A stretch of DNA of 64,000 nt from Trichocoleus desertorum NBK24 (GTDB taxonomy: Bacteria > Cyanobacteriota > Cyanobacteriia > FACHB-46): the NCBI RefSeq assembly GCF_030409055.1, contig NZ_CP116619.1:4890924-4954923 (forward strand), written 5' to 3'. The notes under the pieces were generated by a model. That model made no database searches, was not told where the DNA came from, and saw only the letters and a list, made by a program, of their open reading frames with translations. The translations under genes and the position numbers were made by a program. Shown piece after piece: positions 1-12,418 of this stretch (its first letter is position 1; each line of letters starts with the position of its first letter).

Positions 1-693
1 GGATTGCAATACGAGCGCGGTGGCCCTGCAAAGGGATGGCACTACGAACTAGAGCTGCAACCCGATAGCGAAGCGTGGCAACCTGACTGGCTCGAATGTG
101 CTCGTGAAGCGGATCTAGAAGCCGTTGAAACCGCAAGCTGTTCCTGTGAGTTCGTCCCTGCGGCTCTGCCTCTGTCGCGTGACGCTCGGATTCAAGCCGT
201 GCTCTCTAGTATCTGTCGCACCCTGCACCAACCGCTCGAACCTGTCGAATACTGCCAGCGCTGGGTGTTCCATCCTCTACACCTCCAGAACTACAAGCAA
301 GCCTGCGATCAAGCTCTGGCTCAGGCTTGTGGCTTGCTGCCGACCGAGGTGCAGTTGTGGGGTAAGGAATGGCGCAAACGTCCCAACTATGTGCCCTTCC
401 TGCTACGGCTTGCTGATACCGTCAAGCGCTCTCAAGCTTTGGGTGTCTGTGCCTCTAAGTTCAAGAACCAAACCCCAGAGCTAACCCTCCCCTTGCCTGG
501 GGGCATCCCTCGCCCCCGCTTCCACTTCTGGCAGCAAGTCAGAATCAACGACGAGTGGAGCGAGTGCGGGGTGATTGTCGGCATGGAGTATCAGAACGGC
601 TGGTGGTACTCCATCGAACTAGACCAAGCTACGCCTCACAAGTTCATTGAACCCGTGCGTCACAGCTTTGAGACGGAGGTGCAGCCCCGATGA
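1..693 (+). CDS. Hypothetical protein, 5' end cut by window start
   Basis: The reading frame is open from base 1, so the gene almost certainly begins upstream; the first possible in-window start is a TTG at 4. The visible part is 230 residues. It is rich in Trp, Cys and charged residues, with a C-terminal stretch (roughly the last 55 residues, FHFWQQVRI to the end) that looks like a small beta-rich domain. No family was recognised. Its stop overlaps the start of the next gene by four bases (ATGA at 690-693), so the two are translationally coupled. The position in the phage-like element suggests an accessory or replication-associated protein, but this is only context. Confidence 0.6.
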   Translation, partial: GLQYERGGPAKGWHYELELQPDSEAWQPDWLECAREADLEAVETASCSCEFVPAALPLSRDARIQAVLSSICRTLHQPLEPVEYCQRWVFHPLHLQNYKQACDQALAQACGLLPTEVQLWGKEWRKRPNYVPFLLRLADTVKRSQALGVCASKFKNQTPELTLPLPGGIPRPRFHFWQQVRINDEWSECGVIVGMEYQNGWWYSIELDQATPHKFIEPVRHSFETEVQPR

Positions 694-1739
694 GCACTGC
701 TAGCCCTAACCTGACTTACCTCAAGCTCTGCAAAGAGTACGTCCAAATCACCCAGCGCAACTACTGCGCGGCTAAAATTCTCGCCATCATCGAGGGCTGG
801 CAGCAGTGGAAAGCCAAGCACAAGCTTGACGACTGGGTGAGGCTGACGCTAGAGCAAATTCGAGAGCATCTATTTGAGGAGTACAGCATCGAAACCATTC
901 GCCAAGCCCTCGCCAAGCTGACCAATAAACTGCAACTCCTCAAACGGCGCAACAACCCCAAAGCGAAGTATGACCGAGCCTACCAATACCAACTCAACCG
1001 AGAGGCCATTGAACAAGCTCTAGCCCAAAAACAGGCTAAAACCCTGACTCCGTCTCATTTCACAAATCTAGGAGATGATGACCCTGATTCTGGGAGTTCA
1101 TTTCCTAGTTCAGAGGTCATCATCTCCAAAACGAGTAGTGATCCTATAGAAATAGATTCCACTCTAAATACCTCAATAAACACCACAACAACGGAGCCGC
1201 CCACCCTCCCTGTTGTTGTGGATGAGGTGAAAGTTTCCGAGCCAGCAAGCGCCACTCTGCCTGTCGAACCTTCCCCCGTTCTAAAAGCATCTGGGTTAGA
1301 AGTGGAACAGGTTGCAGAAGACGACTATTCCGCCGCTGCTCACGAAGCAATTTTTGAAAAAATTGAGCAAGCGGGATTTCCGCTGACTTCGCCTTTGAAA
1401 GCTGAGGTTTTAGCCGCTCCATTGAGCGTGGTCAGCGATGCCTTAGCTGCTGCCGTTGAGTATCGAGACAGGCATGAAGTGAGGAATCCGATCGGCTTAC
1501 TCAGGGACGCAATTAGTCAATGCTGGAAACTAGGAGGCAGTGAGCATCCGAAAGCAACCAAGGCCGCAGAACCAGGCTTCAAAGAATGGTTTGACCTGGC
1601 TCATCGGTTGAGGTTGGTGACTGCTAGCCAACTGATTGGGGGTGAACAGTACATCTTGACTAACGATGACGAGTGGGAGCCTTGGGACTTCTTAGCAGCG
1701 GCGTTCCCGATCGCGCGATTGAAGCAGATGCTGGTTTAA
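690..1739 (+). CDS. Winged-helix-like accessory protein of the element
   Basis: The protein has 349 residues. Residues about 1-110 are helical and basic, with a pattern (LTLEQIREHLFEEYSIETIR then LAKLTNKLQLLKRR) like a winged helix-turn-helix DNA-binding domain of replication or partition proteins. Residues about 115-215 are a low-complexity Ser/Thr/Pro/Glu linker. The C-terminal part (about 225-349) is a separate conserved module ending in NDDEWEPWDFLAAAFP. A GGAGG ribosome-binding site lies about ten bases upstream and the start overlaps the previous stop. The last ~25 codons recur downstream as a fragment at 2254-2355. The DNA-binding role is inferred from pattern only; the exact family was not identified. 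Confidence 0.65.
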   Translation: MSTASPNLTYLKLCKEYVQITQRNYCAAKILAIIEGWQQWKAKHKLDDWVRLTLEQIREHLFEEYSIETIRQALAKLTNKLQLLKRRNNPKAKYDRAYQYQLNREAIEQALAQKQAKTLTPSHFTNLGDDDPDSGSSFPSSEVIISKTSSDPIEIDSTLNTSINTTTTEPPTLPVVVDEVKVSEPASATLPVEPSPVLKASGLEVEQVAEDDYSAAAHEAIFEKIEQAGFPLTSPLKAEVLAAPLSVVSDALAAAVEYRDRHEVRNPIGLLRDAISQCWKLGGSEHPKATKAAEPGFKEWFDLAHRLRLVTASQLIGGEQYILTNDDEWEPWDFLAAAFPIARLKQMLV

Positions 1740-2176: not shown

Positions 2177-2210
2177 CAACTTTTCCCCAATTTGGGAACG
2201 CAACCAAGCT
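2177..2210 (+). repeat. Palindromic interspersed repeat, copy 1
   Basis: The core is CAACTTTTCCCCAATTTGGG followed by AACGCAACCAAGCT. It is the first of four copies (2177, 3095, 4661, 5091), with the same orientation and 3' extension (GCAACCAAGCT) as copy 2. The palindrome here has one mismatch. Confidence 0.8.
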
Positions 2211-3094: not shown

Positions 3095-3128
3095 CAACTT
3101 TTCCCCAATTGGGGAATGCAACCAAGCT
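3095..3128 (+). repeat. Palindromic interspersed repeat, copy 2
   Basis: A perfect TTCCCCAATTGGGGAA core with CAACTT on the left and TGCAACCAAGCT on the right, in the same orientation as copy 1. It lies between the small membrane-protein gene and the HigBA-like pair. Confidence 0.85.
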
Positions 3129-3167: not shown

Positions 3168-3575
3168 CTAATGTGGAAAGAAGGCAGCAGGGGAGACATG
3201 AAAGAATTCTGCCAGCCCTTGAATGTGGCGAGCCGTCAAATTGCGCTGACCGCTAAGGACAGCGGACACAATAGATTCTGTCTTGAAGATAGGTACTAAG
3301 TCCTTCTGGCGAAGGTCAAGCTCTTCTATCAGTACTTTGAGCAACTCGACTCCATAGATATCAGGAATCGGTTCCTGGGTTTGCTCGTATTCATACACGA
3401 GTGTGCCCAAGACATTGAGATAGTCTTGTTCGTCAGGTGTTAGCTCTCCGCGATCGATGAGTGAGTCAATCACCGATTGGGCAGCTAACATTTCCTCCTC
3501 AGACTTAATCGGTCGAGGAGGAAATGATTGTAGTAGTTCCATGTAGGAAGCAGGGTTACTTAAACCACGGGTCAT
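3168..3575 (-). CDS. higA: HigA-type antitoxin, HTH transcriptional regulator
   Basis: This is the antitoxin of a type II toxin-antitoxin pair and would bind both its partner and its own promoter. From MTRGLSNPASYMELLQSF the protein has 135 residues. The N-terminal half carries the HigA-like PRPIKSEEEMLAAQSVIDSL helix. The C-terminal half is a Cro/cI-type helix-turn-helix (LRQKDLVPIF ... SAVLSGQRNLTARHIQGLAE) ending in FHVSPAAFF. The frame extends to an ATG at 3605; the start at 3575 is preferred because it matches how related antitoxins begin. It overlaps the end of the toxin gene by 20 bases, typical of coupled higBA genes. Confidence 0.85.
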   Translation of the reverse strand: MTRGLSNPASYMELLQSFPPRPIKSEEEMLAAQSVIDSLIDRGELTPDEQDYLNVLGTLVYEYEQTQEPIPDIYGVELLKVLIEELDLRQKDLVPIFKTESIVSAVLSGQRNLTARHIQGLAEFFHVSPAAFFPH

Positions 3576-3858
3576 CTTTCCAATGCCCTTTGTCGTAATC
3601 GGCATGAGTTAGGACGTGCCGGATAAAAATTTTCTTAGTTTCGTAATCAATGTAAGCAATCAGGCGATAGTTGTTTCCACCAATGTTAAAGACGGTCAAA
3701 TTGCCAACTTGATCGGCGGAAGCAAAGGTTTGACGCAGCTCAACAAAGTTGCCCCATTGGGTTTTAGAGGCAATTTTGTACCAAGCGCGTAAGCTCGGCT
3801 CAGCATTGGGATGCACTTTGTAGAACTGCTTGAGCCTCGAAAGAGTAATGATATGCAT
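3556..3858 (-). CDS. higB: HigB-type toxin (RelE-superfamily mRNA interferase)
   Basis: The protein has 100 residues, the usual length for HigB toxins, which cleave mRNA on or off the ribosome and halt growth. Family-typical stretches are visible: an N-terminal MHIITLSRLKQFYKVHPNAE, a central NLTVFNIGGNNYRLIAYIDY and the C-terminal KIFIRHVLTHADYDKGHWK. The toxin comes first and the antitoxin second, which is the higBA order. The pair sits next to the broken tape-measure-like gene, so it was probably inserted there. It may act as an addiction module stabilising the element. Confidence 0.88.
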   Translation of the reverse strand: MHIITLSRLKQFYKVHPNAEPSLRAWYKIASKTQWGNFVELRQTFASADQVGNLTVFNIGGNNYRLIAYIDYETKKIFIRHVLTHADYDKGHWKDDPWFK

Positions 3859-3991: not shown

Positions 3992-4657
3992 CTTTACAAG
4001 GCAGAGGCCCAGAGCAATTTAGAAATTGCTAAGAAGTCTGGGGATAGTACCAAGATTGCTGAGGCTGAAGCCAAGGTGAAGCTGGCTGACCGGGAAGTGA
4101 ACCTGAGCGATCGCCGTTTTGCCAATGCTCAATCTAGTCTGGGCCTACAAGATGAGCTAGCAGGCAATGCGCTCCAAGCACAGGGTGCTAAGCAGCAGGC
4201 AGAGCGGATTAACTTCAATACGGATGAGGAGTCTAGAGAGAGCGATCGCGGTTTGACTTTGGCAGAGGCGATCGGCAAACGCGGTCGCGGTGGGCGTAAA
4301 ACCTTCGCACCTCGCAGCGCTAGATCGGGTGGCCTCAGTGTTCCAGAAGGGGCGCAGATTCGAGCTTCCGAGGGTGTTGATCCATCGATCAATCGCACCG
4401 ATCCTCAAATCCCAGCCACTCAGCCAGTCAACATCCCAACTACCTCGGCTCCTGAATTGAGCAGCAAGGGTGGCGTTGGCGAGAACCTACGGACTGCGGT
4501 TAGTGGCGTAGAGCAACGACTGGATAAGATCGCCGAGCTTCTGCTCAAGCCACGAGTTGAGAACCTGTACGTCTCCAGCTCTCAGCCTGTAAGTGATGCT
4601 GGCTCAATTCTGAGCGATATCGCCTATCAGAGTACGGTGGGTGCGGGGTTAGCTTAA
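3992..4657 (+). pseudogene. 5'-truncated tail tape-measure-like protein, C-terminal part
   Basis: The frame is open from 3992, just after an in-frame TAA, but the first usable start is a GTG at 4076 that lacks a clear ribosome-binding site. The residues before that GTG (AEAQSNLEIAKKSGDSTKIA) continue a heptad-like helical pattern, so the coding sequence once began further upstream. The remaining 222 codons give a coiled-coil-like, Gln/Ala/Glu-rich N-terminal part, a Gly/Arg patch (GKRGRGGRK) and a Ser/Pro-rich C-terminus. This composition and its place before the other tail genes fit the C-terminus of a tape-measure protein; the assignment is inference. The HigBA pair lies just upstream on the other strand. 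Confidence 0.55.
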
Positions 4658-4660
4658 TGG

Positions 4661-4684
4661 TTTCCCCAATTGGGGAAAAGTTGG
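4661..4684 (-). repeat. Palindromic interspersed repeat, copy 3 (inverted)
   Basis: A perfect TTTCCCCAATTGGGGAAAAG core followed by TTG. Relative to copies 1 and 2 it is in the opposite orientation. It begins three bases after the stop codon of the tape-measure-like fragment. Confidence 0.85.
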
Positions 4685-4757: not shown

Positions 4758-5024
4758 CTAGCTATTGCTACCCCCCTCTGCCTCATTCAGTCTGTATCCC
4801 AGCACTTCTACCACTTCCTCAAAACTCCAACCCGCTTGCATGAGAATTTGAGCAGCAGCGGTTTTGTCTCTTGAAGTGTTCTGTGCCATAAAGTCACGGG
4901 CAAGTTTTTCTACAAGTTTTTCTATATCTGGCGGAGGCGTACTTGCCATAAAGTCACGGACAAGTTTTTCTGTATCTGGTTGAGGCGGTGGATAGCCTTG
5001 AAATTCATCAGGATTGATAGTCAT
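4758..5024 (-). CDS. 88-residue hypothetical protein with an internal duplication
   Basis: No family was recognised. The protein contains two similar segments, DTEKLVRDFMAS and DIEKLVEKLARDFMAQ, each preceded by a Pro-rich spacer (YPPPQP, STPPP). The DNA also repeats: 27 bases at 4884-4910 recur at 4944-4970 with one change. The C-terminal part (AAAQILMQAGWSFEEVVEVL) looks like a small helical unit. The gene is on the strand opposite to the tail genes and lies between palindrome copies 3 and 4, so it reads as a separately acquired cargo gene. Function unknown. Confidence 0.6.
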   Translation of the reverse strand: MTINPDEFQGYPPPQPDTEKLVRDFMASTPPPDIEKLVEKLARDFMAQNTSRDKTAAAQILMQAGWSFEEVVEVLGYRLNEAEGGSNS

Positions 5025-5090: not shown

Positions 5091-5112
5091 TTCCCCAATT
5101 GGGGAAAAGTTG
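5091..5112 (-). repeat. Palindromic interspersed repeat, copy 4 (inverted)
   Basis: TTCCCCAATTGGGGAAAAGT followed by TG, in the same orientation as copy 3. It separates the 88-residue protein gene from the DUF2829 gene. Confidence 0.85.
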
Positions 5113-5172: not shown

Positions 5173-5427
5173 TTATGGTTCAGGCTTTGTGGCGGTTAGA
5201 TTCACAAGCTCCCAATCTTCTGTTAGTAAATCCTCTTGAGAGCAAACCCAACCTGGCTGATGTGTCCCTCTGGGCGTTTTTAAGACAACGACTGATTCGA
5301 TTGTTGTTTCGTCGCGCAGAACTGTTTGGCTGTTGAGGTATACATACATTCCTTTTCCATTCCAGCCAGCGCGGCGAGCACCTCCTCCCTGCTTGAGATG
5401 AGCTACAACTTCTCCTATTCCAGCCAT
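5173..5427 (-). CDS. DUF2829 protein, Tad2-like (Thoeris anti-defence family)
   Basis: The protein has 84 residues from MAGIGEVVAHLKQGG. The two conserved blocks of DUF2829 are present: ARRAGWNGKGMYVYL near the N-terminus and GWVCSQEDLLTEDWELV near the C-terminus. DUF2829 includes phage Tad2, which sequesters the cyclic-ADP-ribose-type signal made by the Thoeris defence system. The start at 5427 is chosen because a good ribosome-binding site (AGAGG, seven bases upstream) and the family's N-terminus agree; the frame runs to 5523 but the extra 32 codons have no family match. It is antisense to the surrounding tail genes, as expected for a cargo (moron) gene. Whether this member blocks Thoeris is not shown by sequence alone. 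Confidence 0.82.
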   Translation of the reverse strand: MAGIGEVVAHLKQGGGARRAGWNGKGMYVYLNSQTVLRDETTIESVVVLKTPRGTHQPGWVCSQEDLLTEDWELVNLTATKPEP

Positions 5428-5443
5428 TGTTCTGCCTCTTGGG

Positions 5444-5665
5444 GTGATGAATGAGGGAGCGATCGCAGATTCACTATTGGCATTCCTGGCTCGGAGAAGC
5501 AGAGATGCAGCTAGGCTCGCCACTTCCCAACCCTTTAACCCCTACCGCCTACGCTATGCCGCATGGGTGCTAGCGATCGCTACCCAAATCCTAACCCCTG
5601 AACCGAGGGAACGCTACCAAGTCCAGACGGCTTGGTGCTATGGGCTTAAAGCTAACCCTCAATGA
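5444..5665 (+). CDS. Small hypothetical protein at the head of the tail operon
   Basis: The frame encodes 73 residues with an Ala/Arg-rich helical N-terminus (SLLAFLARRSRDAARLA) and a Tyr/Gln-containing C-terminus. It overlaps the start of the next gene by 26 bases. No family was recognised. It could be a real small tail-assembly gene or a chance frame, since the region has few stops; its fit between the tape-measure-like fragment and the next tail gene is the main support. Confidence 0.4.
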   Translation: MMNEGAIADSLLAFLARRSRDAARLATSQPFNPYRLRYAAWVLAIATQILTPEPRERYQVQTAWCYGLKANPQ

Positions 5666-6113
5666 AATATCAGTGGAGTTCGTGCGGTTTCTCGACACGA
5701 ACTATCCTCGCGTGCTTGCAGACGGCTCTAGCTCCAAGGTTGAGTTCAGTATTGCGGGCACCCCTGCCATTGACGGCCCTGCCTATATCTCCCGCCATAT
5801 CTGGGCCTGCAACGCCATTTACACCCATGAACAGCGAGACCTACTAGAGGCACTGTTCGCAGAATTTCACTACCGCAGACGCAATCAGCAACTCTGCGAC
5901 ATCCTTATCTATGACACCACAGTCACCCTCAAAGAGCGTAGCCCTCGCACTCGCGCCTTAGTCCCTGGCACCGCAGAGCAGGCGATCGGACTTAGTCATG
6001 TGGCGTACTATGCCCAATTCAAGGGAGCGTTCACCGAGGGGCCAAAGTTTAGCAAAGCGGGTCAGCATGACTTCGTGCAGTTCACCCTGACTGAAACGGT
6101 TCTAGTGCCATGA
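5640..6113 (+). CDS. Phage tail protein, distal-tail-like
   Basis: The protein has 157 residues and is predicted mostly beta, with the pattern KVEFSIAGTPAIDGPAYISR near the middle and QHDFVQFTLTETVLVP at the C-terminus. No enzyme motif is present. It is coupled to the next, large tail gene by an ATGA overlap at 6110-6113. A small beta protein just before a large hub-like protein is where distal-tail or minor-tail proteins sit in siphophage-like modules. The specific role is inferred from gene order. Confidence 0.5.
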   Translation: MGLKLTLNEISVEFVRFLDTNYPRVLADGSSSKVEFSIAGTPAIDGPAYISRHIWACNAIYTHEQRDLLEALFAEFHYRRRNQQLCDILIYDTTVTLKERSPRTRALVPGTAEQAIGLSHVAYYAQFKGAFTEGPKFSKAGQHDFVQFTLTETVLVP

Positions 6114-8563
6114 CCGTGAACAAGTCGGCGCGGTTTGTTCGGCTTCTAGTAGGCGATGAACTGCTGGATTACTCCAGTGCCTGCGCTGCGGTTCAACTCA
6201 GCGATTCACAGTACGAACCAGGAAGCGGGCTGAGCACAACCAGCGGGACTATCACCCTCATTCCCGTGCGAGATTTGCCAGGAAGCTTGGACGATCGCAA
6301 GAATCCAACCACCTGGAAGATCGGCCAAAAGCTAACGCTCTACACCACCAAGCTTGACGGTAGTTTTGCCAAGCATCCACGCGCAGCACTGCGGATTCTG
6401 AGCGCCGAATATAGCGACGAAACCAAGCGGCTGACCTTAAAGGTGGGATGCCTGCTTGCTGCGCTCAACTTCAAGCAACCCACTGACCCCAAGAAAGCAG
6501 AGATTGAACCGGGTAAGGCTACGAACCGAGCGGCGATCGCCAGCAAGCTCCTGACCGAGGCTGGTATCACCCAAATTGCCAACATCGGCGTAGCAGGTGG
6601 CTACCCCATCAATTACCCGATTCGGGTCAGTGGCGGCTACCTGGAAACGGTCGGGAAGCTTTTGTACGCTGCTGGCTGCATTGGCTGGATTGACAAAGAC
6701 GAAAAGTTTCAGGTTAAGCAAGTCAGCATCAAGCCCTTGACTTCAGTCGTCACAGTCACGGTTGGAGCAAACGAACTTTGGTATCGACGGCTCACCAACC
6801 CTGAGGGGCCACGCGAGATTGTCAAGGTTAACGGGGTCAGCCAGGTTGCTCGACTAACCAAAACAATTAAGAACCTATTTACCGAAAAGATTGGCAATGG
6901 CATCGTTTTAGGCGAGTTCTGGCAAGGTGCCACGATCATTCTCTTGCAGTCCTACCTGACAGAGGAATGGGACGAGACGCGCAAGATTCTCACCACGACC
7001 ACAATCAGCTATCAGCCGCGAGGGTTGATCCTACCTAACCAGGCGGACCCAATCAAAGCGGGGTTGATTTTATCTGAGAAGCGGATTGAAAAGCGCTATT
7101 TTGAGCGCACTGAGGAAGGGAAGCTCCTCAAGATTGTGACTGAAGTGCAGAGGCCCAAGGGGGCTGTACTAGGCGAGTACTACGAAGCCAACGATTTGAC
7201 CGACTCTCCCGCGATCGCCGCCTCTTTCTTCGCTGAAACCACTGAAGTCGTCTACCAGTACGATCGCAAGAATCGAACCCAGCAAATCACGACCACCAAA
7301 TTTGAATCGATGGGGGCCATTCTCACTGGAACGGGTGAGGATTGGGCGGGACAGGTTGAACCCACAAAACCTTATGCCTCTGAATCGCAGGTGGAAGCAT
7401 GGCGACTGTTGAGGCATCGCAACTGGGAGCACACGATTGAAATCTATAAGCCTTTGGTGAAGGTGCGATCGCTAGAAACCCTACCAGAAGACGCAACCCA
7501 GCAACAAAAACTAGCCCTCACCCGCGATGACCAGAACAGCATTCGAGAGGTGAGCGGCTCCGGACAAACCACACCCCCAGCAGTCGAGCATTGCCCAGCT
7601 AAAGCCACCTTTGAGGATAGGCAGGTTTCTGGCTCGGCCAGATTTGGGCAATACGGCGGCAACACTTTCAGGGAGCGCGAACGCAGCTTCTCGGTTGACT
7701 ACCTTCAGGGCTATGAGGCGGACGAGGACGACCTCTACACCTACAGGTTCACCTTCGCGGGAGCTGGGACCGATGGCAGCGGCATCAACAACGGTGGCGG
7801 AGACGAAGGCGGCGGAGGCGCTCAAGCTCAATGTCAAATGCTGGCTCAACAAGAAGGCGCGATCCTGATTGGCAAACATAAGGGCCAAGAGATTGGCATT
7901 GCGCTGCGAGATGAGCTGTTTGATAATTGGTCGCCGCTGATGGCTGCGGACGTACTGGAGCAAGACGGTACGGTTCGTACCTATCTATTAGATGGCTCGA
8001 ATTGGGTGCTGTATGAGCGCGAAGCTTTAGTAAATTTTGACGGCATTTGGGTCGGCGATCGCATCACTACCACGATCAACGGCAGCACTACGCCAACCAC
8101 AACTCTGAAGTTGCCCTACCTGGAAGTGGATGTTTGCGAAGCAGGATGGGCGATCGGCGCTCAAATCACCGACTATCCCTACAGTCTGGATGCTGGAGCC
8201 GACGTTATTCAAGCTGGCTTAGGGATTGGGGCGCAAATTACTGAGACTGAAACCCTTGTTGAAACTGACTTAGTGCGGGCTGGCTTAGGAATCGGCGCAC
8301 AAACTACTGAAACCCTTCCACCCAGTGATACGGTGCAGGCTGGCTTAGGAATTGGGGCGAGAATTCTAGACAACGAAAACGACATTATTCAAGCTGGCTT
8401 GGCAGCTGGGGTGCGAGTGACCGATGAGGCGATCGCTGACGAACTGCACGCTGGCATCGGCATTGGCGCAAGGGTGAGAGATGGGCAGGTGGCTTGGCAG
8501 GATCTGACCTTTAGCGACTGGCAGAATCTGAGCCTGGAGGATTGGCAGAGTCTTGAGTTCTAG
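6110..8563 (+). CDS. Large phage tail hub-like protein with C-terminal repeats
   Basis: The protein has 817 residues. Residues about 1-400 look like a baseplate-hub or tail-associated protein: beta-rich, with SGTITLIPVRDLPGSL, WKIGQKLTLYTT and a KVNGVSQVARLT segment. A Gly-rich stretch (GGGDEGGGGA, about 561-570) links to a C-terminal half that, from about 8129, has six imperfect repeats with core AGLGIGAQIT, then ends in the Trp-rich pair LTFSDWQNLSLEDWQSLEF. The family was not pinned down. The repeats probably form a fibre-like or carbohydrate-contacting tip, which would place it at the tail end next to the fibre genes that follow. Confidence 0.6.
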   Translation: MTVNKSARFVRLLVGDELLDYSSACAAVQLSDSQYEPGSGLSTTSGTITLIPVRDLPGSLDDRKNPTTWKIGQKLTLYTTKLDGSFAKHPRAALRILSAEYSDETKRLTLKVGCLLAALNFKQPTDPKKAEIEPGKATNRAAIASKLLTEAGITQIANIGVAGGYPINYPIRVSGGYLETVGKLLYAAGCIGWIDKDEKFQVKQVSIKPLTSVVTVTVGANELWYRRLTNPEGPREIVKVNGVSQVARLTKTIKNLFTEKIGNGIVLGEFWQGATIILLQSYLTEEWDETRKILTTTTISYQPRGLILPNQADPIKAGLILSEKRIEKRYFERTEEGKLLKIVTEVQRPKGAVLGEYYEANDLTDSPAIAASFFAETTEVVYQYDRKNRTQQITTTKFESMGAILTGTGEDWAGQVEPTKPYASESQVEAWRLLRHRNWEHTIEIYKPLVKVRSLETLPEDATQQQKLALTRDDQNSIREVSGSGQTTPPAVEHCPAKATFEDRQVSGSARFGQYGGNTFRERERSFSVDYLQGYEADEDDLYTYRFTFAGAGTDGSGINNGGGDEGGGGAQAQCQMLAQQEGAILIGKHKGQEIGIALRDELFDNWSPLMAADVLEQDGTVRTYLLDGSNWVLYEREALVNFDGIWVGDRITTTINGSTTPTTTLKLPYLEVDVCEAGWAIGAQITDYPYSLDAGADVIQAGLGIGAQITETETLVETDLVRAGLGIGAQTTETLPPSDTVQAGLGIGARILDNENDIIQAGLAAGVRVTDEAIADELHAGIGIGARVRDGQVAWQDLTFSDWQNLSLEDWQSLEF
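8129..8500 (+). repeat. Six imperfect coding repeats (core AGLGIGA) in the tail protein
   Basis: Units of about 18-24 codons each start near a (V/I/L)xxAGxxIGA(Q/R) core: CEAGWAIGAQ, IQAGLGIGAQ, VRAGLGIGAQ, VQAGLGIGAR, IQAGLAAGVR and LHAGIGIGAR. The spacer between cores varies in length and is rich in Thr, Glu and Asp. Confidence 0.85.
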
Positions 8564-8604: not shown

Positions 8605-9294
8605 ATGGCAACTGTTACCTGTAATCACGTCTCCTCCTGGCAGCTCTACGTTGCCGAACTGGTCCGCACGATGGGCGTCTATCGGCAAGTTTTCTGCATG
8701 GGTGCAGGCACAGCCACCACGATTGAAGCAGTCGTTGCTGCCGAGTTGGTTGAGGCCAACGGGTACAATCGCAAGACCTACAATCCAGGGCCAAACACCT
8801 ATAGCTCTACCAATAAGCGGGTGGAAGCTCCAGCGGTTAATAACGCTTTGGTTGCTAGCGGGACTTCCCTGCAATACGACTCAACCGCACTAATTTTTAA
8901 CGGCGCGAGTAGCGCTAACAAAGGCTTTACTAATTCAAATGTGGATGCTGGCAGCAACACTATTACTGTTACGGCTCACGGTCTAGTCAATGGAGACGCG
9001 ATCGTCTTGACTGCTGATGCTGGCTCGACCCTAGCAGGCGGACTGACCGCAGGCACCCTATACTACGCTGCTGCTATCACCTCAGACACCTTCCAGGTTT
9101 CTACTACTGCCGATGGCTCAGCCATTGTCGATATCACGAATACTGGCTCAGGCAACATGCGACTGCGCTATGCCAAAGGCCAACTGGTGTGGGTGGGCAA
9201 TTATGGCTCAACTCAGACGATCGCAGACGGAGCCTCCAGAACTATCACCACCAACACCGAACTCCACAACTCCGGTTACACGGTGGGAGTGTAA
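8605..9294 (+). CDS. Phage tail-fibre-like structural protein
   Basis: The protein has 229 residues, rich in Thr, Ser, Ala, Gly and Asn and poor in charge, as in fibre and appendage proteins. A recognisable module is HGLVNGDAIVLTADAGSTLA ... GTLYYAAAITSDTFQVSTT, a small beta-rich repeat-like domain common in phage structural proteins. There is no enzymatic motif. It lies 41 bases after the hub-like gene and three bases before the next fibre-like gene, so it belongs to the same transcription unit. Confidence 0.6.
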   Translation: MATVTCNHVSSWQLYVAELVRTMGVYRQVFCMGAGTATTIEAVVAAELVEANGYNRKTYNPGPNTYSSTNKRVEAPAVNNALVASGTSLQYDSTALIFNGASSANKGFTNSNVDAGSNTITVTAHGLVNGDAIVLTADAGSTLAGGLTAGTLYYAAAITSDTFQVSTTADGSAIVDITNTGSGNMRLRYAKGQLVWVGNYGSTQTIADGASRTITTNTELHNSGYTVGV

Positions 9295-9297
9295 GCA

Positions 9298-9840
9298 ATG
9301 GCTTGGGGTGGAAGCAGTGCTGATATTACGGCGCTTAAGGCAATCAACACCACTGGATTGCAAGATGGCCTAGCCCTTGAGGTACTAAGCAAACGGGCTT
9401 GGTACTATCTCGCCTCCAGCTCCAGCACAACGGCAGACGATGAGCAATGTGTTGCCCCAACTACGGGGCCAGGTCGCTGGCTCAAGCTTGGGGTTGGGTT
9501 CAACAATTATCAAGCGGCTCAAGTTGTAGCACCTGTCGCGATCGCTTACGCCGCAACGGTCACGCTCGACTGCTCACTAGGCAACACTTTTGTGATTGGT
9601 ACTCTGACCGGAAATATCACCGTTAATGTCACCAACCTCAAAGCGGGTCAGGCGATCGCCATTCAATTCACCCAAGATGCGACCGGGGGCAGAACCGTTA
9701 CTTGGCAGACTGGAGTTTTTGAGTGGGCAGGTGGAACCGCAGGTGTGCTCAGTACTGGAGCAAGTAAGCGCGATCGCTTTTACGGGCATAGCTTTGACGG
9801 CATCAAGATAGATGGGGCGCTACGCCAGGATGTGCGCTGA
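9298..9840 (+). CDS. Phage tail-fibre-like structural protein
   Basis: The protein has 180 residues. The N-terminus (SADITALKAINTTGLQDGLA) and the following WYYLASSSSTTADDEQCVAP resemble the trimer-forming modules of tail fibres and appendages. The central part (LDCSLGNTFVIGTLTGNITVNV) and the C-terminal ASKRDRFYGHSFDG are typical of a beta-sandwich fibre tip seen in many dsDNA phages. Its stop shares a base with the next start (TGATG at 9838-9842). Confidence 0.65.
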   Translation: MAWGGSSADITALKAINTTGLQDGLALEVLSKRAWYYLASSSSTTADDEQCVAPTTGPGRWLKLGVGFNNYQAAQVVAPVAIAYAATVTLDCSLGNTFVIGTLTGNITVNVTNLKAGQAIAIQFTQDATGGRTVTWQTGVFEWAGGTAGVLSTGASKRDRFYGHSFDGIKIDGALRQDVR

Positions 9841-10694
9841 TGTTTCCTTTGATTGGCGTTGGCCTGCTTCAAGTTGCAACGACTTCTGCTTACGATCCAG
9901 ACGCTCAGGCTGTGATAAGTGCGATCGAGGCTACCGGAGTGACGCTGTCACCTACTCAAAAGACAGCTTGCAATAATCGCATTCTTGCTCACAAAGCCGA
10001 TCAGACCTGGGCTAAGTTGATAGGCTATTACGGATTTCTAGGCGGTACGGCGGCTAGCCACGCAATTAACTGGAAATCTCCAGGTACTTACAACCTGACC
10101 TACATTGGAACAATCAGCCATTCAGCGAATGGAGTTCAAGCCTCTGGGTCGGGCAGCGCTGCCAACACTGAATACAATTTCGCTTCGGCAGGACTGCTAA
10201 CCAGAAGTGCTCATTTAGCCTGCTATTCACGGACTAATATTGCTGAGACCTCCTGCGACATGGGAGCGCTGGAGTATTACCCAGCATTCGGCAGTGTTAA
10301 GGCTATGGGCCTGTATCTAAGGTGGAGCACTGGCGAGCTTATTTATTCCGGGATTGATCAAATTCAATTCGGTATTGCTGCGAGCACTGGAGCGACAGTT
10401 GCAGCACATACTTTTGACTCCGGAAGTAATGGGAAGGCTTTTCGAGTAATTCAATCAGGGAGTGCGATTTACACAGCAACTATCACTGGAGTCGCGAGCC
10501 TCACGGAACTGAACGCCCCACTTTATCTAATGAACCGAAGCAATGTGAACGCTCCTGACCCAGCGGCCTACGACAGAGTTTCTTCTCGACAATTCGGAAG
10601 CTTTCAATTCGGATACGACTTTACGCAATCAGAAGCGATCGCTTCCTCAAACTCAGAGCAAGCTTACCAAACTGACTTAGGGAGACAGGTTTAA
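9840..10694 (+). CDS. Phage structural protein, possible lectin-like fold
   Basis: The protein has 284 residues. An N-terminal helical segment (DAQAVISAIEATGVTLSPTQ) is followed by a long beta-rich region that alternates aromatic and small residues (for example GKAFRVIQSGSAIYTATI). The layout resembles concanavalin/LamG-like domains in phage appendages that contact cell-surface sugars, but the match is by pattern only. It overlaps the previous gene by one base and is followed six bases later by another structural gene. Confidence 0.55.
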   Translation: MFPLIGVGLLQVATTSAYDPDAQAVISAIEATGVTLSPTQKTACNNRILAHKADQTWAKLIGYYGFLGGTAASHAINWKSPGTYNLTYIGTISHSANGVQASGSGSAANTEYNFASAGLLTRSAHLACYSRTNIAETSCDMGALEYYPAFGSVKAMGLYLRWSTGELIYSGIDQIQFGIAASTGATVAAHTFDSGSNGKAFRVIQSGSAIYTATITGVASLTELNAPLYLMNRSNVNAPDPAAYDRVSSRQFGSFQFGYDFTQSEAIASSNSEQAYQTDLGRQV

Positions 10695-10700
10695 CGTGCC

Positions 10701-12140
10701 ATGACCCCTGAAGAGCTACTACGCCAAACCTCTGTCACCAATCGCGCTGCTCACCAGCAAAAGCAAACCAAGCAGCAGAAGATCCGATCGCGCCAAAATC
10801 CTCATGCTGTGGCACTTTCTTACGATGCAGCAAGCGGCTCTCAGCAAATCCAACTGAGTGATGGCAGCATTCGTGAAGCCCAAACCAATAGCAATGGTGT
10901 GATTGGAGTTGGAGATACGGTAGCGCTGCATCAAGGCAAGGGGCGATCGCGCATTAATGTGATGCCGCACAAGCCAACCCAGCGTCAGGCTGAGGTTTCT
11001 CAGTCTGCTCCATCTGGGTCAGTCAAGGTTTTGTTTTCGGTGGTTGTGGATGGGGTGAGGCGTTTTTATGTTGGGGGCGATCGCCAAACCCCTACTAAAA
11101 TCTTTGAGATTCCAGCAACTGATTTTTTTCAAGCTTATATCACCAATACTGGGAAGAAAATAAACGACTGGATTGCCTCGTTTGACCGCAGTGGGAATAA
11201 GGCGATCGTTACGCCTTCGGGGCAGTGGATTTATAACACTCCGCAATCTGGGTACGTGATCTACCGGGGCGGGGGTTTTTGGTCTAGCGACTTAGTTGTT
11301 GCTAGCATGAGCACTGGGGCCGCCATTCAAAGCGGTGGCACGTCAGTAGGGGAGCTGACTTGCGGGGGGACTACCTACGCCCTTTTTAGGTCTACGATTA
11401 CAGGTCGCATAACGGGTCCAGTAACACCTAGTTTTTTGTCAGCTTCTTCTACCACTAGCGGAACTGTCGTGGGAGGAAATGATGGAGGAAGCCCGCCGAT
11501 TGGCATCACAACAAGCCTAAGTATTACAGACTCCAGATCCTATGAGGCTGTCGCCTTTGGCCTCTACAAGTCGGAGTTCAACACTTTGGCAGGCTCAAGA
11601 AACTTCACGGCACAGGAGACTGCTGCTAGAGGTTGCGATACTGGTAGTTCAAGTTATACCCAAGAGGAGATCACTGCAGGCTCAACCTATTTGGCTCCTG
11701 ATATTTCTAGAGTTTACGAGAGTTCAAGATACTTTTTAAGCCAATCAAGCTCTTCGGATGTGTACGAGGATTCGGATTCGTATTATCTTCCTGTTTTAAC
11801 AGGCGTAAATTCTCGATCCGCGATCGCCATAAAAATTAGTCAAACTCGTGACGGGTCAAGACCAGACGCAGGCTTGAAGTTGTTCACCAAAACAGCAAAC
11901 GACCTAACAGAAACAGCGATCGCCGGAACTCTGCCAACACTTAATCTGGCAACTCAGAACTTGATTGGTTCAAGAATCTATCAAGTGCCAATATTAGAAG
12001 TCTATAAAACTCAGAAAATAGACGTAGAGTTAGATGTTTTTGCGATCGCTGAAACTGTTAGCAATTCAAAGAAAAAAGCTCCTGTTCTCAGCCTGAAATC
12101 TCAAAACTGCACCATTCACTCGGCCAGTGCATTCCTATGA
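10701..12140 (+). CDS. Phage-element structural protein with conserved N-terminal module
   Basis: The protein has 479 residues. The first ~90 form a module beginning MTPEELLRQTSVTNRAAHQQ, with a basic Gln-rich helix, a short beta unit containing IGVGDTVALHQGKGRSRINV and ending in MP. The rest is Ser/Thr/Gly-rich and beta-like, as in fibre or adhesin proteins. The next gene is a short paralogue of the N-terminal module alone. Its stop overlaps that gene's start by four bases. Function unknown; a role at the tail tip or cell surface is inferred from location and composition. Confidence 0.55.
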   Translation: MTPEELLRQTSVTNRAAHQQKQTKQQKIRSRQNPHAVALSYDAASGSQQIQLSDGSIREAQTNSNGVIGVGDTVALHQGKGRSRINVMPHKPTQRQAEVSQSAPSGSVKVLFSVVVDGVRRFYVGGDRQTPTKIFEIPATDFFQAYITNTGKKINDWIASFDRSGNKAIVTPSGQWIYNTPQSGYVIYRGGGFWSSDLVVASMSTGAAIQSGGTSVGELTCGGTTYALFRSTITGRITGPVTPSFLSASSTTSGTVVGGNDGGSPPIGITTSLSITDSRSYEAVAFGLYKSEFNTLAGSRNFTAQETAARGCDTGSSSYTQEEITAGSTYLAPDISRVYESSRYFLSQSSSSDVYEDSDSYYLPVLTGVNSRSAIAIKISQTRDGSRPDAGLKLFTKTANDLTETAIAGTLPTLNLATQNLIGSRIYQVPILEVYKTQKIDVELDVFAIAETVSNSKKKAPVLSLKSQNCTIHSASAFL

Positions 12141-12418
12141 CTCCAGCAGAACTTTTAGCCGAAACCAGCAAAGCATCGCGATCGCAATTTATCGAGCGGC
12201 AAATCAGCAAGCAAGCTGAGGAGCAAGCGCGTCAGGAATTTACAGCAGAGGTGATTGGCTGGAATTCGGCGGCGGGGGCTTGGGATTGCAAGCTGGACGA
12301 TGGCGGCTCGATTGTACAGGCGGATAGCATTACGTCAGGTGGTGAGTTTGGGACTGGGGATGTGGTGTCGCTCTACTTGCCTGCTCAGGGAAGGGCCACA
12401 ATCAGTGCAATGCCATGA
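12137..12418 (+). CDS. Short paralogue of the preceding gene's N-terminal module
   Basis: The protein has 93 residues starting MTPAELLAETSKASRSQF and ending GRATISAMP. It matches the first ~90 residues of the preceding protein in order and layout: the MTPxELLxxTS start, a Gln-rich helix, a SDGSIREAQ-like / DDGGSIVQAD strand pair, a GxGDxVxL turn and a final MP. It is therefore a stand-alone version of that module, created by tandem duplication. It is the last gene of the element before the tRNA-Ser piece, 90 bases upstream of it. Confidence 0.6.
   Translation: MTPAELLAETSKASRSQFIERQISKQAEEQARQEFTAEVIGWNSAAGAWDCKLDDGGSIVQADSITSGGEFGTGDVVSLYLPAQGRATISAMP

Follow-up and report, generated by a model that had tools for sequence, protein, structure and literature searches.

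A Tad2-family gene carried as inserted cargo in a prophage of the cyanobacterium Trichocoleus desertorum NBK24

Introduction

Tad2-family proteins are phage-encoded and sequester a bacterial alarm molecule. The described members differ in the molecule that they hold: SPO1 Tad2 binds gcADPR but not 3'3'-cGAMP (PMC11722364), ModTad2 binds His-ADPR (PDB 9EIB; PMC13299392), and for some members the ligand is a cyclic dinucleotide or His-ADPR, in place of gcADPR or in addition to it (PMC12043709; PMC13299392). Because ligands differ in this way, an anti-Thoeris role cannot be read from the family name. The gcADPR pocket is shared between two protomers, one of which supplies loop b1-b2, loop b3-b4 and strand b4, and the second loop b1-b2, loop b4-a3 and helix a3 (reviewed in PMC12043709); the binding of cGG and related cyclic dinucleotides by some members makes use of a long insertion (PMC12043709).

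Here, we describe a tad2-like gene of Trichocoleus desertorum NBK24, located in a window of 64,000 nucleotides (contig NZ_CP116619.1, positions 4,890,924 to 4,954,923). The original prediction, drawn from this stretch, was of a DUF2829 gene lying antisense within a phage tail operon and acting as an anti-defence moron against Thoeris.

Results

A Tad2-family protein

The tad2-like gene encodes 84 amino acids followed by a stop (MAGIGEVVAHLKQGGGARRAGWNGKGMYVYLNSQTVLRDETTIESVVVLKTPRGTHQPGWVCSQEDLLTEDWELVNLTATKPEP). A longer frame beginning with the GTG at 5523 was considered and dropped, since the ATG at 5427 has both a Shine-Dalgarno-like site and agreement with the family start in its favour. 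The single Pfam-A match of the product was to PF11195 (E 1.2e-19; 71 bits, with a gathering threshold of 25 bits; profile positions 3-73 of 73), the DUF2829 family that had been proposed, the current Pfam name of which is 'Tad2-like'. Within PHROGs the protein matched phrog_1048 (4e-20) and phrog_872, both of which are function-unknown entries, and it was matched by none of the PADLOC and NCBIfam models. When the PDB was searched with phmmer, SPO1 Tad2, AcrIIA7/HgmTad2, SptTad2 and ModTad2 were returned at E-values of 1e-9 to 1e-6, the sole further row being a chance match (E 0.76); a profile built from 65 Tad2-like relatives (A1) gave seven PDB matches with E-values of 2e-24 or better, all seven to Tad2/AcrIIA7.

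Both conserved blocks anticipated for DUF2829 are present. The residues that are invariant across the 65 aligned sequences (R19, G21-K25 [G21 W22 N23 G24 K25], M27, W60, S63, D66, D71 and W72) are all kept, with the invariance of the GWNGK block being partly circular because the search patterns used to collect the relatives contained GWNGKGMY. The motifs RxGWNGKxM, W..S..D and DW also occur in SPO1 Tad2, ModTad2, AcrIIA7 and SptTad2, all of which lie outside the A1 set. On the evidence of sequence profiles and a predicted structure, assignment of the protein to the Tad2 family is secure.

Predicted fold and pocket

An AlphaFold2 model of the monomer was obtained with a mean pLDDT of 88.9 and a pTM of 0.75. 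All 23 of the Foldseek matches in the PDB with E <= 0.001 were Tad2/AcrIIA7 entries, and VIA-align placed Tad2/AcrIIA7 entries at Z 9.5-10.7 over 72-77 residues, the next entry scoring 6.8. The expected likeness to Tad2 was therefore upheld by every significant structural match, and the predicted fold can be regarded as securely that of Tad2.

In the model, the pocket elements correspond to residues 20-26, 51-58, 59-63 and 64-68. G21 W22 N23 G24 K25, W60, S63 and D66 fall within predicted pocket elements, of which loop b1-b2, loop b4-a3 and helix a3 can be named. At the level of elements, the conserved blocks are intact and map in the model onto those that form the pocket. The b2-b3 linker, from M27 to W60, comprises 32 residues, compared with a median of 41 in the 65 relatives, and the alignment shows it to be clearly longer in AcrIIA7. 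The long insertion after strand 2 that typifies the cyclic-dinucleotide-binding AcrIIA7/SptTad2 type is not found in the tad2-like protein.

As a separate observation, chain S of PDB 8qkh, a neck protein of phage 812, has a Tad2-like fold, which hints at a relationship between the Tad2 fold and a virion protein.

Position of the gene within the prophage

The window covers the right end of a large prophage, whose tail genes extend to 12418; host ndh genes follow from 13520. An integrase, TerL, a portal-like DUF4055 protein, a Gp13-like capsid protein and a 3495-aa tape measure are encoded in the same region (G000:C1 4.79-4.90 Mb), and the Tad2-like protein is hence carried by a prophage, among phage tail genes, as had been supposed. 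The proposed antisense placement held in part: the gene is on the strand opposite to the tail genes, but it overlaps none of them, sitting instead in a gap between 4657 and 5640 (Table 1). No viral-contig relatives were found for the tail proteins encoded at 5640-6113 and 6110-8563 or for the cassette gene, and no phage record matched the 817-aa tail protein.

A related prophage (G083) has the order TerL, connector, tail genes, tape measure, 5640-gene and 817-aa gene. There, the tape measure and the 5640-gene are 14 bp apart, whereas in NBK24 they are separated by 11.3 kb of cargo; the span from TerL to fibre is ~26 kb in G083 as against 111 kb in NBK24, the structural module of which holds about 85 kb of insertions. 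In another genome (G257), an HNH gene 50% identical to that of NBK24 is found in the interval from the tape measure to the 817-aa tail gene. With the site empty in G083 and an HNH gene in this part of G257, it is well supported that the tad2-like gene, at the right-hand end of the 11.3-kb block, was inserted as cargo, and the 14-bp empty site sustains its description as a moron.

The block contains an HNH gene, a cassette, HigBA, a duplicated tape-measure end, an 88-aa orphan gene and the tad2-like gene, and the HigBA pair (3168-3858) and the orphan gene (4758-5024) are the neighbouring cargo that the original prediction had invoked. Beside the PD-Lambda-2_A match there is no full-length PD-Lambda-2_B; the B-like protein matches only positions 5-113 of 402, and the pair was filed as HigBA for that reason. 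The tape-measure duplicate, which covers the last ~215 residues and is isolated close to where the insertion ends, perhaps marks a recombination or insertion event.

Table 1. Features of the tad2-like locus and of other prophage cargo. Plain positions are those of the window; positions with an L prefix refer to other analysed stretches.
Feature	Position	Strand	Remarks
Right part of sixth cassette copy (229-aa part and 349-aa gene)	1..1739	+	
Palindrome copy, one mismatch	2183..2198	.	
Palindrome copy	3101..3116	.	
HigA-like antitoxin with HTH	3168..3605	-	partial PD-Lambda-2_B match
HigB toxin	3556..3858	-	PF09907; PADLOC PD-Lambda-2_A
Diverged duplicate of C-terminal end of tape measure (3495 aa)	3996..4657	+	68% identity, 217 alignment columns
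Palindrome copy, just after tape-measure fragment	4662..4677	.	
88-aa orphan gene, downstream of tad2	4758..5024	-	no family match
Palindrome copy	5091..5106	.	66 bp past tad2 stop, 66 bp before 88-aa gene start
tad2-like gene, 84 aa	5173..5427	-	PF11195, AlphaFold2 model
Shine-Dalgarno-like AAGAGG, 7 nt upstream of tad2-like ATG	5435..5440	-	read from sequence
Tail gene, directly after tape measure in relative	5640..6113	+	
817-aa tail protein	6110..8563	+	homologues in 21 other cyanobacterial genomes
Distal tail/fibre genes	8605..12418	+	
PifA-like KAP NTPase	L135:9251-11443	-	6e-118
DNA methylase and 1469-aa helicase	L142:12957-18445	+	
HigB-like toxin and PD-Lambda-2_B-like protein	L143:6622-8071	+	

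A prophage-confined palindrome and repeated cassettes

A perfect 16-bp palindrome (TTCCCCAATTGGGGAA) is present in 20 exact and 2 one-mismatch copies, all of which lie within 4,759,228-4,896,029 (137 kb). It does not occur in the rest of the 5.46-Mb genome, the reversed control gave no occurrence, and across the 389 other sampled genomes a single copy was seen, in a congener. Of the 20 sites, three are inside open frames; the others are intergenic, often at the edges of cassettes or cargo. Two sites (4662-4677 and 5091-5106) flank the 88-aa gene, and the nearer of these, being past the tad2 stop, is outside the tad2 promoter region. Dispersed repressor sites, 18-30 of them, are described for phages phiC31 and L5 (PMC4557955), and for the 43 and 21 dispersed motifs of Nostoc phages A-1 and N-1, respectively, a stoperator function was suggested (PMC4916379). 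The NBK24 palindrome resembles the phiC31/L5 stoperators in having many near-identical sites confined to the phage, and by analogy with these phages a dispersed repressor site would be its simplest interpretation; alternatively, it may be a cassette boundary or cassette-exchange element. A candidate HTH protein, a possible repressor acting at the palindrome, is encoded at L140:16181-16822.

A 350-aa gene is represented by six copies (90-100% identity to the query) and one fragment, all within the NBK24 prophage, and every copy belongs to a multi-gene unit that includes an ORF6N-type protein. Besides the copy at the left edge of the window, these cassettes are found at L142:7050-12528, L143:9948-14798, L134:5399-10615, L135:2967-8304 and L135:16337-L136:1651. 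The six cassettes occur in both orientations. Each has a small regulator or a toxin-antitoxin-like pair of its own, and near each is a different endonuclease gene (TnpB, HNH, LAGLIDADG or GIY-YIG); the product of L136:1760-2464 is HNH-like by eye, with no Pfam match. Weak relatives of the 350-aa protein are found on cyanobacterial plasmids. We tentatively suggest, as a possibility on which we would not insist, that tad2 is cargo of a modular system private to this prophage, in which plasmid-like, endonuclease-adjacent cassettes and palindrome-bounded blocks enlarged the structural module from ~26 to ~111 kb and filled it with genes for defence and counter-defence (methylase plus helicase, PD-Lambda-2-like pair, PifA-like NTPase, HigBA and Tad2), the palindrome serving either as a dispersed repressor site or as a cassette-exchange boundary.

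Defence genes of the host and of other cyanobacteria

Tad2-like proteins were present in 2 of 390 sampled cyanobacterial genomes, all of the same class as the host. Models of ThsB_TIR, TIR_2, STALD and ThsA (PDLC00407) gave no match in the closed 5.46-Mb host genome, the STALD model having no match in control genomes and matches in other cyanobacteria; the search for ThsA and ThsB with which the original prediction was to be checked thus revealed no Thoeris component in the host. This does not refute a counter-defence role, since other strains may carry the target. None of 380 sampled cyanobacterial genomes yielded a whole SIR2-SLOG ThsA, and each of the 16 cyanobacterial ThsA matches covered either the SIR2 part or the SLOG part alone. 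The two SLOG/STALD proteins that were scanned are both TIR-SLOG (TIR_2 plus STALD) fusions (L165:6964-8139 and L166:5629-6843); such fusions may be single-gene Thoeris-like proteins.

One SMODS (CBASS) cyclase was detected in the host, with a 2TM effector (SLATT_6) beside it. The N part (1-240 of 432) and the C part (237-430) of the cyclase flank a DDE transposase (L164:6990-9840; G000:C1 ~1.075-1.078 Mb), and the adjacent effector aligns to model positions 1-85 only, so the CBASS operon looks broken.

Discussion

The best explanation of these data, and one that we consider probable, is that the gene encodes a prophage-borne Tad2-family sponge that would bind a nucleotide signal derived from NAD+ and made by a TIR enzyme. 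The protein would form the Tad2 homotetramer, and the tetramer would bind gcADPR or a related molecule, such as His-ADPR, and keep it from its effector, with the result that infection or induction would not be aborted. Because Thoeris is not detectable in the lysogen, the benefit would fall in other hosts. An ADPR-type signal is our best guess for the ligand, since the region of the long insertion is short in this protein; cyclic-dinucleotide binding by way of that insertion appears less likely, and an anti-Thoeris action is plausible.

A sponge of the same fold could instead take a cyclic dinucleotide and counter CBASS rather than Thoeris, as cGG and related dinucleotides are bound by some Tad2 proteins (PMC12043709) and the host carries CBASS genes, an SMODS-AGS_C cyclase and a SLATT_6 effector. 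We regard this as rather unlikely: the insertion used for the reported dinucleotide binding is short here, SPO1 Tad2 leaves 3'3'-cGAMP unbound (PMC11722364), and in the host a DDE transposase interrupts the cyclase and the effector covers only the first half of its model. It is also unlikely that the gene is decayed or silent cargo with no present function, given that its frame is open across the whole profile, every invariant residue is kept and a Shine-Dalgarno-like site precedes the ATG. On the other side, the surrounding region is rich in duplications and transposases and holds a truncated copy of the tape-measure gene, and a promoter search around the gene, a weak test, gave no promoter-like match.

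A role as a neck or tail accessory part of the virion, built on the Tad2 fold, was raised by the phage 812 neck protein (8qkh_S; VIA Z 6.8) and by the position of the gene among tail genes. This role was rejected as very improbable, for the gene is on the opposite strand, inside inserted cargo whose site is empty in G083, and the 8qkh match, at 15% identity, is the weaker one and was missed by phmmer. AcrIIA7 is a relative in both sequence and structure, from which an anti-CRISPR function of the AcrIIA7 type might be proposed, but the structure of AcrIIA7 was later determined with cADPR and cGG (title of 8kbk), which makes it a sponge itself, and we give this last alternative hardly any credence.

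With a sponge for a TIR-made signal as the preferred reading, a well-supported Tad2 sponge is now placed in a cyanobacterial prophage, among hosts in which the family is rare and a whole SIR2-SLOG ThsA was not found in the genomes sampled. Either Tad2 meets another TIR signal here, or the gene came from another host range. Taken by itself, the gene belongs to a known family and is unremarkable within it, and its prophage context is stranger than the gene.

Among the described proteins, SPO1 Tad2 (Bacillus phage, gp34.65; PDB 8SME/8SMF/8SMG/8WJE) shares with the tad2-like protein a common fold (TM up to 0.73, 31-37% identity by Foldseek), the RxGWNGKxM and W..S..D..DW blocks and a phage origin. 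Its b2-b3 linker is ~10 residues longer, and the NBK24 protein, unlike it, belongs to a cyanobacterial prophage in a host genome where Thoeris was not detected. ModTad2, from a Myroides odoratus prophage (PDB 9EIB, with His-ADPR), also has the common fold (VIA Z 9.8, 35% identity) and a prophage location, but carries WTPSVSD where the tad2-like protein has WVCSQED. The fold and conserved blocks are likewise common to HgmTad2/AcrIIA7 (PDB 8KBI-8KBM) and SptTad2 (8WJD), in which the long insertion linked to cyclic dinucleotides is present, whereas the corresponding part is short in the tad2-like protein. The Tad2-like protein of a second cyanobacterial genome (G119, L137; PF11195 E 4.2e-25) is similarly encoded in what looks like a phage gene cluster, with neighbouring products that resemble phage lysozyme and terminase; it belongs to a 94-aa class with a longer linker, and its gene is on the same strand as its neighbours, whereas that of NBK24 is antisense.
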